Assembly (NCBI GenBank): GCA_025362495.1
Contig: JANYGI010000162.1
Location: 1 to 61,109, forward strand
Length of the DNA: 61,109 nucleotides
Direction: 5' to 3'
Origin: Byssovorax sp.
Lineage (GTDB): Bacteria; Myxococcota_A; Polyangia; Polyangiales; Polyangiaceae
Part shown: piece after piece, positions 17,139-27,321 of the stretch
Layout of the letters: each line of letters opens with the position of its first letter
Position numbering within the stretch: position 1 is the first letter of the stretch
Translations under genes and position numbers: made by a program
Notes under the pieces: generated by a model
The model's input: the letters and a program-made list of their open reading frames with translations, nothing else
The model's database searches: none
Told to the model about the DNA's origin: nothing

Positions 17139-17876
17139 TCATCCGTCGAACCAGTCGAACGCGTCGTGCTCTCCGGGCTCGCCGATCTCCCACCCTTCGA
17201 GCCGCCAGGCGCCTCCCCGGTCGGTGTCGACGTAGGTGAAATACAGGCACTCTCCGGGGACTTCGACGCTGAGGCGTGCTTCGCCCAGGTAGAGAAACAC
17301 CCACGCGCTGACGAGGAGCGCGTCGTTCACGACCTGTGCGCCGACGACGCCGCGGACGCGGAGAGTCAACGAGTCCGCATCGGAGCCGCCGGTGCGAAAA
17401 TCGACGCAGAAGCCGTCGTCGAAGCCGATCTCGTCGTCCTCGATCTCCAGCTCTTGCCCGAACCGCTTCGCGAGCTGATCGACGAGGTTCCTGACGACGG
17501 CATACCAGACCTGCTCGTCCCCGCGGTCGGGCGTGGTGGGCTCGCCGTAGCCAAACAGGATATCGTCGGTGTCGTTCTCGATCTCCGACTCGTGTCGGAC
17601 GCCGTACTCGTCGATCCGGCAGGCCCATTTGGCGACGGCGGCCAGGCCCCCTGCGGTGCCGCGCTCGACAGAACCGCGCGCGATCAAGCGGTCGATCTCG
17701 CCGTCCTCGCCGACGTCGTCTTGACAGACGATGACCGCCATCCCTTCGGACAGGCTCACCGGGATGCCGGAGGCGTCGAGTCGCACGTCGCCGCGGGCCA
17801 GCAAGACGAGGTCGCTCTCGACCATTTCATTGAAATCCACGACAAAACAGGGCGGTTCCATCGACTGCTCAACCAT
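17139..17876 (-). CDS. Hypothetical acidic protein
   Basis: This is a 245-residue acidic protein with no recognised family, signal peptide or membrane segment. It is rich in Asp/Glu and contains strands such as AWVFLYLGEARLSVEVPGE and YFTYVDTDRGGAWRLEGWEI that suggest a mixed alpha/beta fold like SMI1/immunity-type or plate-reader hypothetical proteins, but I cannot assign it. It lies 45 bp downstream of the pseudokinase gene on the same strand and may be its operon partner. Confidence 0.65.
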   Translation of the reverse strand: MVEQSMEPPCFVVDFNEMVESDLVLLARGDVRLDASGIPVSLSEGMAVIVCQDDVGEDGEIDRLIARGSVERGTAGGLAAVAKWACRIDEYGVRHESEIENDTDDILFGYGEPTTPDRGDEQVWYAVVRNLVDQLAKRFGQELEIEDDEIGFDDGFCVDFRTGGSDADSLTLRVRGVVGAQVVNDALLVSAWVFLYLGEARLSVEVPGECLYFTYVDTDRGGAWRLEGWEIGEPGEHDAFDWFDG

Positions 17877-21868: not shown

Positions 21869-22684
21869 TCAGGGCGCGGGCGCCGTCTTCGCCAGCTCGG
21901 CCTTGATCGCGATCACGATCGCGCTGGTGTCGAAGCTGTCGTTCGGATTGCCGGGATCGTCGCCGGGGTACTCGGGAGAGTCCCAGTGAGCGACGAGCTT
22001 TCCATCGCGCCCGACGAGGTACTTGCTGAAGTTCCACAGCGGCTGGATCGCGAGCGGCGGGCTTGGATTCGGCTGCGCTTCGAGCCACGCGAACACCGGC
22101 TCGGCGTTCGGCGCGAGCACGTGATCGATCCCGAACTGATCGAACGTGACCATGTATTTGCCGTTGCAGGTGTCGATCTGGCCGGGATCACCGCCCTGAT
22201 TTCCGAAGTCGTCGCTCAGGAACCCGAGCACGTGGAGACCCTGCGCCTTGAACTTTTCCTCCAGGACCTGGAGGCCCGCATACTGCGGTGTATAGCCTCA
22301 TATAGCGGCGGTATTGACGATCAGCATCACGTCGCCGCGGTACTTGCACATCGAGACCGGGCCCGCCGATCCGTACATGTCGCCCGTGGTCTCGTAGATG
22401 CTGCCCGGCGCCGCCGCGGGGTTGCACGCGAACGCGCCGCTGCCGCCGCTGCCGCCCGCGCCGACGGAGGCGCTCGCCGTCGCGCTCGAGCTCGCCTGCG
22501 CTACGCCGCCCGCTCCGACCGCGCCCGTGCTGCTCGTCGTCGCTGCCGTGCCGCCGCTCCCGCTCGTCGCCGTGGTCGCGCTCGCCGTCGATCCGCCGCC
22601 GCCCGTGGCCGGCGTCGCGCCTCCGCACGCCGCCGTGAGCGCAAGCAACGCGATGCCCAGATTCGTCCCGCTGATGCGTCCCAT
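21869..22684 (-). CDS. Glutathione peroxidase-like lipoprotein, predicted selenoprotein (Sec129)
   Basis: This is a 271-residue protein if TGA 22300-22298 is read as selenocysteine. A signal peptide with lipobox LTAAC (Cys20) and a ~70-residue Gly/Ser/Thr/Ala linker precede the thioredoxin-fold domain. The domain reads VNTAAI-U-GYTPQYAGLQ, where other peroxidases have Cys or Sec. The rest of the tetrad is intact: Gln in DDFGNQGG, and Trp and Asn in LWNFSKYLVG. No other stop interrupts 271 codons, AGAGGA precedes the ATG at good spacing, and a SECIS-like hairpin lies 24 nt after the TGA. It would reduce peroxides at the cell envelope. A nonsense mutation at exactly this codon is the alternative. 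Confidence 0.85.
22258..22274 (-). promoter_or_regulatory. Candidate bacterial SECIS element in the glutathione peroxidase mRNA
   Basis: On the minus strand the coding RNA contains CCTCCAG-GTC-CTGGAGG: a perfect 7-bp stem with a 3-nt apical loop whose first base is G. The stem begins 24 nt and the loop G lies 31 nt after the in-frame TGA. Bacterial SECIS elements described by Zhang and Gladyshev have a small apical loop with G in its first two positions, 16-37 nt from the Sec codon, so spacing and loop both fit. The hairpin also encodes residues of the peroxidase. SelB binding is inferred. Confidence 0.68.
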
Positions 22685-22797
22685 GGTCCCGTCCTCTTGA
22701 TTGGCAGCGTAGCCGCACCGACGCCTGCGCCGCAACGCGCGCCGCGGATCGCGCCGCTTCTAGCGTCCTGGCCCGACACGTTGTAGACGCTCGCCCC

Positions 22798-26061: not shown

Positions 26062-27321
26062 ATGAAGCATATCGTCCCCTGGGCCCTGCTCGCGGTTGCC
26101 TGCGGCGCTTCGTGCACCCTCGATCTCTCGGGGATCTCCGGCGGGACGACCGGTGGCAGCTCGGCGGCGGCGACCTCGTCGAGCGCGACGACCGGCGGCG
26201 GCGGCGCGAGCAGCACCACCACAGGCTCGATGGCGATGTCGTCAGCGTCGTCGGCGTCGGCGTCGTCAGCGAGCAGCGCCGCGTCGAGCTCGAGCACCGG
26301 CGGCGGCCCGGTGTGGGCCCATCGCCGCACGCTCGATCTCGATCTCGGCACCAACGGCGAGGTCGATGATTTCGCGGTCCTCGTGCTCCTCGACAAGACC
26401 CGCATCGACTACGGCGCGACCCGGGACAAGGGCGAAGATCTCCGCTTCACCGACCTGAACGATAAACCGCTCGACCACGAGATCGAGCGCTGGGACGAGA
26501 GCTTCAACTCGCTGGTGTGGGTCCGCGTCCCCAAGATCAGCCGGAACGGGAACAACCACACCAGCATCCAGATGTACTACGGCAACGCCGCCGCCGACGA
26601 CGGGCAGAACGCTCATGGCCTCTGGGGCGGGAGCTACGCCGGCGTGTGGCACCTGCACCAGGCGGACGACGCGCTCGCCGACTCGTCCGGAAACACCGCT
26701 GTCGCCGTCAACCATGGCTCGACGAGCATGCCAGCGTTCCTCGGCTACGGGCGCAACTTCGTCGCTGGCTCACAGCAGTACATCGACACGCTGAACGACA
26801 AACAGGTGACCCGCTTCACCGTCGAAGCCTGGGTAAAGGGCAACCACGACGCCTACTCCGGCAGCGGCCCGAACGGCCCCCTTATGCGCGAGAAGAACTA
26901 TCAGATCGTGTGGGATCACGCCTCTCCTTTCACCGCCGGGGCGAGCCTGAACACCGAGGACAGCAATGCCAGCGGGCAGAACTGGAAGACCGCGGACTTC
27001 GGCGGACTCGACGGCGGGACGTGGTTCTACCTCGCCGCGACGTTCTCCGGGGACGCGCTTCGTAGCTACAGGGACGGGACCAAGCAAGACGAGAAAAACT
27101 TCAATCTCACCGATCCCCAGGCAGAGGACCGGACGGCGAAGATCGGCCGACACGCGTTCAACACGGGCACCGCGAACTTCTTCGACGGCATGATCGACGA
27201 GGTCCGCATCTCGACCGTGGCCCGCACCGATCTCTGGATCCAGACGCAGAACAAATCGATGCGCAACGATGGATTCGTCGGCTTCGGAGCGGAGCAGACG
27301 GGGAGCTACGCGCTCCCTTGA
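26062..27321 (+). CDS. Lipoprotein with DUF2341 and LamG/concanavalin-like domain
   Basis: This is a 419-residue surface lipoprotein. Lipobox VACGASC is followed by ~65 residues of Ser/Ala/Gly/Thr, a very repetitive linker. Residues 85-180 match DUF2341 (AHRRTLDLD...VLVLLDKTRIDYG...DLNDKPLDHEIERWD...MYYGN), a beta-sandwich common in extracellular and carbohydrate-related proteins. Residues 195-405 match a LamG-like jelly roll (AGVWHLHQ, RFTVEAWVKG, TWFYLAATFSGDALRSYRDG, FDGMIDEVRIST). Probably binds polysaccharide or matrix. It is followed 27 bp later by another lipoprotein. Confidence 0.88.
   Translation: MKHIVPWALLAVACGASCTLDLSGISGGTTGGSSAAATSSSATTGGGGASSTTTGSMAMSSASSASASSASSAASSSSTGGGPVWAHRRTLDLDLGTNGEVDDFAVLVLLDKTRIDYGATRDKGEDLRFTDLNDKPLDHEIERWDESFNSLVWVRVPKISRNGNNHTSIQMYYGNAAADDGQNAHGLWGGSYAGVWHLHQADDALADSSGNTAVAVNHGSTSMPAFLGYGRNFVAGSQQYIDTLNDKQVTRFTVEAWVKGNHDAYSGSGPNGPLMREKNYQIVWDHASPFTAGASLNTEDSNASGQNWKTADFGGLDGGTWFYLAATFSGDALRSYRDGTKQDEKNFNLTDPQAEDRTAKIGRHAFNTGTANFFDGMIDEVRISTVARTDLWIQTQNKSMRNDGFVGFGAEQTGSYALP

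Follow-up and report, generated by a model that had tools for sequence, protein, structure and literature searches.

An in-frame TGA at the catalytic codon of a lipoprotein-type glutathione peroxidase in Polyangiaceae and its probable reading as selenocysteine

GPX-like proteins are an established family of bacterial selenoproteins, for which a 2026 review gives the Pfam family PF00255, the motif UxxT, and the reference protein WP_010957027.1 (PMC13188914). In the table of a 2006 survey, glutathione peroxidase (GPx) appears as one selenoprotein with one Cys-to-Sec event and none in the reverse direction, and Gpx is listed in Treponema denticola (PMC1794560). With one entry in that table and one reference protein in the review, these sources agree with the preliminary description of the locus reported here, which called selenocysteine (Sec)-containing GPx uncommon in bacteria. 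Conversions of Sec to Cys that leave a remnant SECIS are known for FdhA and HesB-like proteins (PMC1794560). Among the papers listed in our searches of the open-licence literature, none is presented as a description of a myxobacterial or lipoprotein Sec GPx.

Here, we analysed a stretch of 61,109 nucleotides from Byssovorax sp. (Polyangiaceae), hereafter the window, which is one whole contig of a 10.84-Mb draft genome in 240 contigs. A GPx gene on its minus strand carries an in-frame TGA that is almost certainly read as Sec. This reading is proposed for the following reasons: (i) the reading frame is open on both sides of the TGA, (ii) the encoded protein belongs to the GPx family, (iii) the host genome encodes Sec machinery, (iv) the TGA and a downstream hairpin are conserved together, and (v) the hairpin is broken in orthologs with a Cys codon.

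Gene, frame, and protein layout

On the minus strand (22684-21869), the frame begins with an ATG at 22684, and its sole interruption is TGA 22300-22298, at residue 129. The proposal that the two pieces flanking this TGA join into one GPx is borne out: the frame is open over 271 residues, and the merged protein matches Pfam GSHPx (PF00255) across the TGA with an E value of 1.5e-17 and 63.6 bits (cut-off 27). The TGA also lies where the catalytic residue had been placed, in the context VNTAAI-U-GYTPQ. The features of the locus are as follows:

22692..22698, minus strand: AAGAGGA, a ribosome-binding-like stretch read from the sequence
21869..22684, minus strand: coding sequence of the lipoprotein-type GPx, 271 aa, stop codon TGA 21871-21869
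22625..22684, minus strand: lipoprotein-type signal peptide ending ...LTAAC, a sequence pattern, with the proposed lipidated Cys20 at codon 22627-22625
22433..22624, minus strand: low-complexity Gly/Ser/Ala/Thr linker, from the sequence
22082..22363, minus strand: GSHPx domain match (Pfam PF00255), residues 108-201, running across the TGA
22298..22300, minus strand: in-frame TGA, proposed Sec129 and peroxidatic residue; TGA in 13 of 15 orthologs and TGT in 2
22258..22274, minus strand: candidate bSECIS hairpin CCTCCAGGTCCTGGAGG, with a 7-bp stem, a GUC loop, 30 nt from TGA to loop, and -9.9 kcal/mol
22196..22198, minus strand: Gln163, tetrad residue (GNQ), invariant in a 21-row alignment
22166..22168, minus strand: Cys173, candidate resolving cysteine, invariant in 21 rows and in 34 rows
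22031..22036, minus strand: Trp217-Asn218, tetrad residues, invariant in the 21-row alignment

The GPx tetrad is defined as Sec/Cys-Gln-Trp-Asn, and residues 129, 163, 217, and 218 of the window protein all stand in invariant columns of the 21-row alignment, in accordance with the earlier statement that Gln, Trp, and Asn are intact. Of the alignment to Sec- and Cys-type GPx that had been suggested, relatives from the host and related genomes were aligned, and solved GPx structures were matched by sequence. The standard-code list of open reading frames breaks the gene into two pieces, and automatic gene calling would therefore probably truncate or split it. Rfam and ARAGORN searches of the window alone gave no match.

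The N-terminus consists of a signal-like hydrophobic stretch up to LTAAC, followed by the linker rich in Gly, Ser, Ala, and Thr. A lipobox usually has L at position -3, where the window protein has T. By eye, a Cys after a hydrophobic stretch near the likely start was seen in 14 of the 15 orthologs, the 15th (G117) being cut by a contig end. Going by this N-terminal pattern, the product is probably exported and lipid-anchored in the cell envelope. Of the signal peptide, lipobox, and ribosome-binding site described earlier, the ...LTAAC pattern, the linker, and the AAGAGGA stretch are all present, with the lipid anchor itself standing as a sequence pattern. Elsewhere in the window (26062-27321, plus strand), another open frame has a lipoprotein-like start (ACGASC) and a Ser/Thr/Gly-rich linker, a layout like that of the GPx N-terminus.

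Orthologs, hairpin, and selenocysteine machinery

In a search of 108 genomes of the host's family, and among the matches listed (the weak end left out), 15 orthologs including that of the window span essentially the whole domain, the other 14 being 57-66% identical to it over the domain. TGA stands at exactly the catalytic codon in 13 of the 108 genomes, belonging to seven genera (G000, G066, G067, G083, G097, G113, G114, G115, G117, G118, G127, G128, and G129), and the remaining two orthologs, G111 and G112, have TGT (Cys). In wider searches, the order (183 genomes, E up to 1e-20) and the class (317 genomes, E up to 1e-28) each listed these 13 TGA rows without any further one, and a sample of the phylum (377 genomes, E up to 1e-40) listed five, all within the 13. 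In the genomes searched, the TGA-bearing branch was seen in a single family, Polyangiaceae. Plasmids were also searched, and the 172 records obtained are all below 60% identity. A profile scan of wider genome contigs found at least 80 loci, of which 33 were aligned; none of these 33 exceeds 54% identity to the domain of the window protein. Of the three patterns that the scan used, one presumes a catalytic Cys codon and could let TGA genes escape; the loci were used as Cys controls. TGAs in the relatives L004, L010, L016, L052, and L053 were set aside as giving no support: they occur either before the domain or at the terminus, and the catalytic site is Cys.

The window is GC-rich, and 157 of its TGAs are flanked on either side by 60 or more open codons. 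A simple rule scan found a SECIS-like hairpin in 10 of these 157 TGA-bridged frames, the GPx TGA included. Since such frames are common in this DNA and such hairpins can arise by chance, a frame and a hairpin alone would prove nothing, and the case rests on homology and conservation. The presence of a hairpin by itself was accordingly dropped as evidence. So was the fold of the single sequence, which is weak and not significant (z -1.3; 19 of 200 shuffles fold equally well). The nine other TGA-bridged frames with rule-fitting hairpins, at window positions 17141, 31933, 33202, 40914, 52248, and 53958 on the minus strand and 21133, 24247, and 24803 on the plus strand, are most likely chance products of GC-rich DNA.

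Across orthologs, CCTCCARGKYYTGGAGG stands at the same distance from the TGA in all 13 TGA-bearing genes, each of which preserves the stem pairs, with a minimum free energy (MFE) of -8.0 to -9.9 kcal/mol for the 17-nt hairpin, and 29-30 nt between TGA and loop. Published rules for bSECIS elements call for a loop of 3-9 nt, a stem of 4-16 bp, a G in the first two loop positions, a spacing of 16-37 nt, and an MFE of at most -7.5 (PMC13188914). Our own scan with these rules, to which we added a G or U following the loop G, finds a conforming hairpin in all 13 TGA orthologs. Among 113 distinct Cys sites, which a motif located in 116 loci and which were scanned as a control, any rule-fitting hairpin occurs at 2 and the GPx stem at none. 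Six of the seven stem pairs never vary and the last is G-C, G-U, or A-U; because of this invariance, counts of covariation are uninformative in either direction (178 of 500 shuffles score equally well). Codon choice within the hairpin is distinctive: the Leu of V-L-E (G-L-E in one row) is encoded by CTG or TTG in 13 of 13 TGA orthologs, whereas in the pooled domains 118 of 176 Leu codons are CTC. When synonymous codons were redrawn, the full stem arose with P 0.07-0.11 per genus and a product of 1.4e-7 over the seven genera, a modest effect within each genus, drawn from a codon pool that includes the hairpin's own codons, and a product that overstates the strength, as the genera are partly dependent.

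All four components of Sec synthesis and insertion named in the preliminary description (selA, selB, selD, and tRNA-Sec) were found in the host genome. The tRNA-Sec scores 70.3 bits and is called tRNA-SeC with anticodon TCA by ARAGORN, a selB match of 270.6 bits (cut-off 242) lies 83 nt from it on the same contig, and selA and selD score 460.9 and 317.7 bits, the latter with one in-frame TGA. This TGA of selD (C13:87497-88426, L056:2498-3427) falls in GGGUARK and has its own GUC-loop hairpin (-12.2 kcal/mol for the stretch), and host SelD likely contains Sec. The host genome would thus have at least one other likely selenoprotein. The host also has a second GPx (C177:48782-49192, L002:1501-1911), which is of the Cys type (TGC), 48% identical, and without a SECIS-like hairpin.

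Over the family, selB and tRNA-Sec both exceed their cut-offs in 12 of the 13 TGA genomes versus 21 of the 95 others (Fisher P 1.3e-6, kinship ignored). In the remaining TGA carrier, G066 (86% complete), selB and tRNA-Sec were not found at the thresholds used; its congener G067 has both. In the 21 other Sec-decoding genomes, either the Cys form is present or an ortholog was not found, so the Sec GPx gene is not needed for the Sec-decoding trait.

Other readings of the TGA are improbable. That it is read as another amino acid, for example when a suppressor tRNA inserts Trp or Cys or through leaky readthrough, would be compatible with the sequence taken alone; we nevertheless regard it as very unlikely. 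The TGA lies exactly at the catalytic Sec/Cys site, where Trp would abolish peroxidase chemistry, the gene's own terminator is TGA in 5 of the 13 carriers, that of the window included, and both a SECIS-like hairpin and a tRNA-Sec with anticodon TCA are at hand. Slightly less probable still is a pseudogene, in which a Cys codon (TGC or TGT) mutated to TGA and left the gene dead or its product truncated. The Cys homologs examined do have Cys at this site, and a single point mutation would be enough. However, the same TGA occurs in 13 genomes of seven genera in a domain without any other stop, accompanied by the hairpin and with Sec machinery present. Moreover, protein identity to the window is 59-68% after the TGA versus 36-64% before it, being higher after than before in 11 of 12 comparisons, with the twelfth lower by one point; the downstream half is therefore not decaying. 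A one-base sequencing error, conceivable had there been only a single draft genome, has next to no probability given TGA in thirteen genomes, one of them a single-contig genome.

Exchange of selenocysteine and cysteine among orthologs

The preliminary description had held that close relatives with a Cys codon and no hairpin would speak against Sec. Two such orthologs exist, those of G111 and G112 (TGT; L065 and L066), neither with a working hairpin, and both belong to genus g14 together with the TGA carriers G113, G114, and G115. The five loci of this genus have neighbouring open reading frames on both sides in common, at 86-99% identity. In the protein tree, G111 and G112 fall together inside the genus, with TGA orthologs around them, at supports of 90/87 for the pair and 86/78 for the fork above, both below the program's starred level, and 100/100 for the genus. 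Since they are nested in a Sec clade at a syntenic locus, the TGT orthologs are most readily taken as derived losses rather than evidence against Sec.

The state of their hairpin is in keeping with this. In both G111 and G112, an A-to-C change in the 3' arm has removed one stem pair from the 17-nt element and its loop no longer has the GU, leaving -3.5 kcal/mol; when 25 nt are folded, another hairpin, of 5 bp, is preferred (-7.6), and the rule scan finds none. Both genomes retain selB and tRNA-Sec. From sequence comparison, the pair is best read as a reversal from Sec to Cys with a decaying SECIS fossil.

A second Sec/Cys exchange, in either direction, may have taken place in genus g5 (loci L067, L072, L073, and L003). 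Here, the gene downstream of the TGA ortholog in G117 is also found, at ~50% identity, beside the Cys forms in G119, G120, and G004, and the other TGA carrier of the genus, G118, has no flanking gene in common with those three. Over the whole protein tree, at least four changes of Sec/Cys label are required, two of which are forced by well-supported branches.

Proposed function and comparison with known systems

We consider it highly likely that the gene encodes a Sec-containing, peroxide-reducing GPx, with UGA decoded via SelB, Sec-tRNA(Sec), and the hairpin, and with a product that is exported and probably lipidated at Cys20. From the computed frame, family, machinery, and conserved TGA and hairpin, we infer Sec insertion, lipidation, substrate, and reductant as follows. 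SelB and Sec-tRNA(Sec) would decode UGA codon 129 under the direction of the 17-nt hairpin CCUCCARGKYYUGGAGG, in which the apical loop begins 29-30 nt past the UGA. After export and probable lipidation, the selenolate of the Sec-Gln-Trp-Asn tetrad would reduce hydroperoxides, plausibly those of membrane lipids, its attack on the hydroperoxide giving a selenenic acid, and the enzyme may then be regenerated by way of a selenenylsulfide formed with the invariant Cys173. This intermediate is plausible because Cys173 sits at the position that we take to be that of the resolving Cys of thioredoxin-type GPx. Given an envelope location, direct use of cytosolic glutathione or thioredoxin would not be expected.

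Myxobacteria are mainly aerobic soil bacteria. Somewhat more tentatively, and with rather less than even confidence, we suggest that some Polyangiaceae have an envelope-tethered, selenium-based lipid peroxidase, a counterpart of GPX4 outside the cytosol, with Sec/Cys switching at one syntenic locus within genera. In one genus, Sec and Cys orthologs can be compared at a single locus, the former with an intact hairpin and the latter with a broken one, which makes the long-standing question of why Sec rather than Cys is used directly testable. If the reading is true, the switching gene offers a natural series for measuring the retention and loss of Sec in an otherwise little-changed enzyme.

Among solved structures matched by sequence, the window protein is closest to 6vpd_A (E 3.7e-21), followed by yeast HYR1 (3cmi, 3.3e-19), with GPX4 entries ranging from about 1e-17 to 5e-14 and plant GPX5 (2p5q) at 1.9e-14. 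Like GPX4 and the thioredoxin-type GPx, it conserves the tetrad, and FPCNQF of 6vpd_A corresponds to FLSDDF in the window protein. Unlike GPX4, HYR1, and GPX5, the window enzyme is prokaryotic and probably envelope-anchored and combines the proposed Sec with an invariant downstream Cys. Nearer at hand, the Cys-type lipoprotein-like GPx of G004, G119, G120, and G029 are 50-54% identical over the domain and have a similar signal-linker layout by eye, but their catalytic codon is TGC or TGT and they lack a SECIS-like hairpin.

Sec GPx is thus an already known bacterial family, and what stands out here is a conserved, probably envelope-anchored branch and a within-genus Sec/Cys series. The present gene resembles the bacterial GPX-like selenoproteins, as far as the review describes them, in belonging to PF00255, in its U-G-Y-T, which fits UxxT, and in the presence of Sec machinery and a bSECIS (PMC13188914). 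It differs from them in its lipoprotein-type signal and long linker and in forming a branch seen, in the genomes searched, in one family, the Treponema Gpx being considered here by its listing in the survey (PMC1794560). The analysis adds to that family a conserved, probably exported Sec GPx branch of 13 species in one family of bacteria. As in the FdhA and HesB-like conversions covered by the survey, the Cys orthologs occur in Sec-decoding organisms and have a decayed hairpin (PMC1794560). In contrast to the table of 2006, which has no Sec-to-Cys event for GPx (PMC1794560), the GPx described here appears to have gone from Sec to Cys within one genus.
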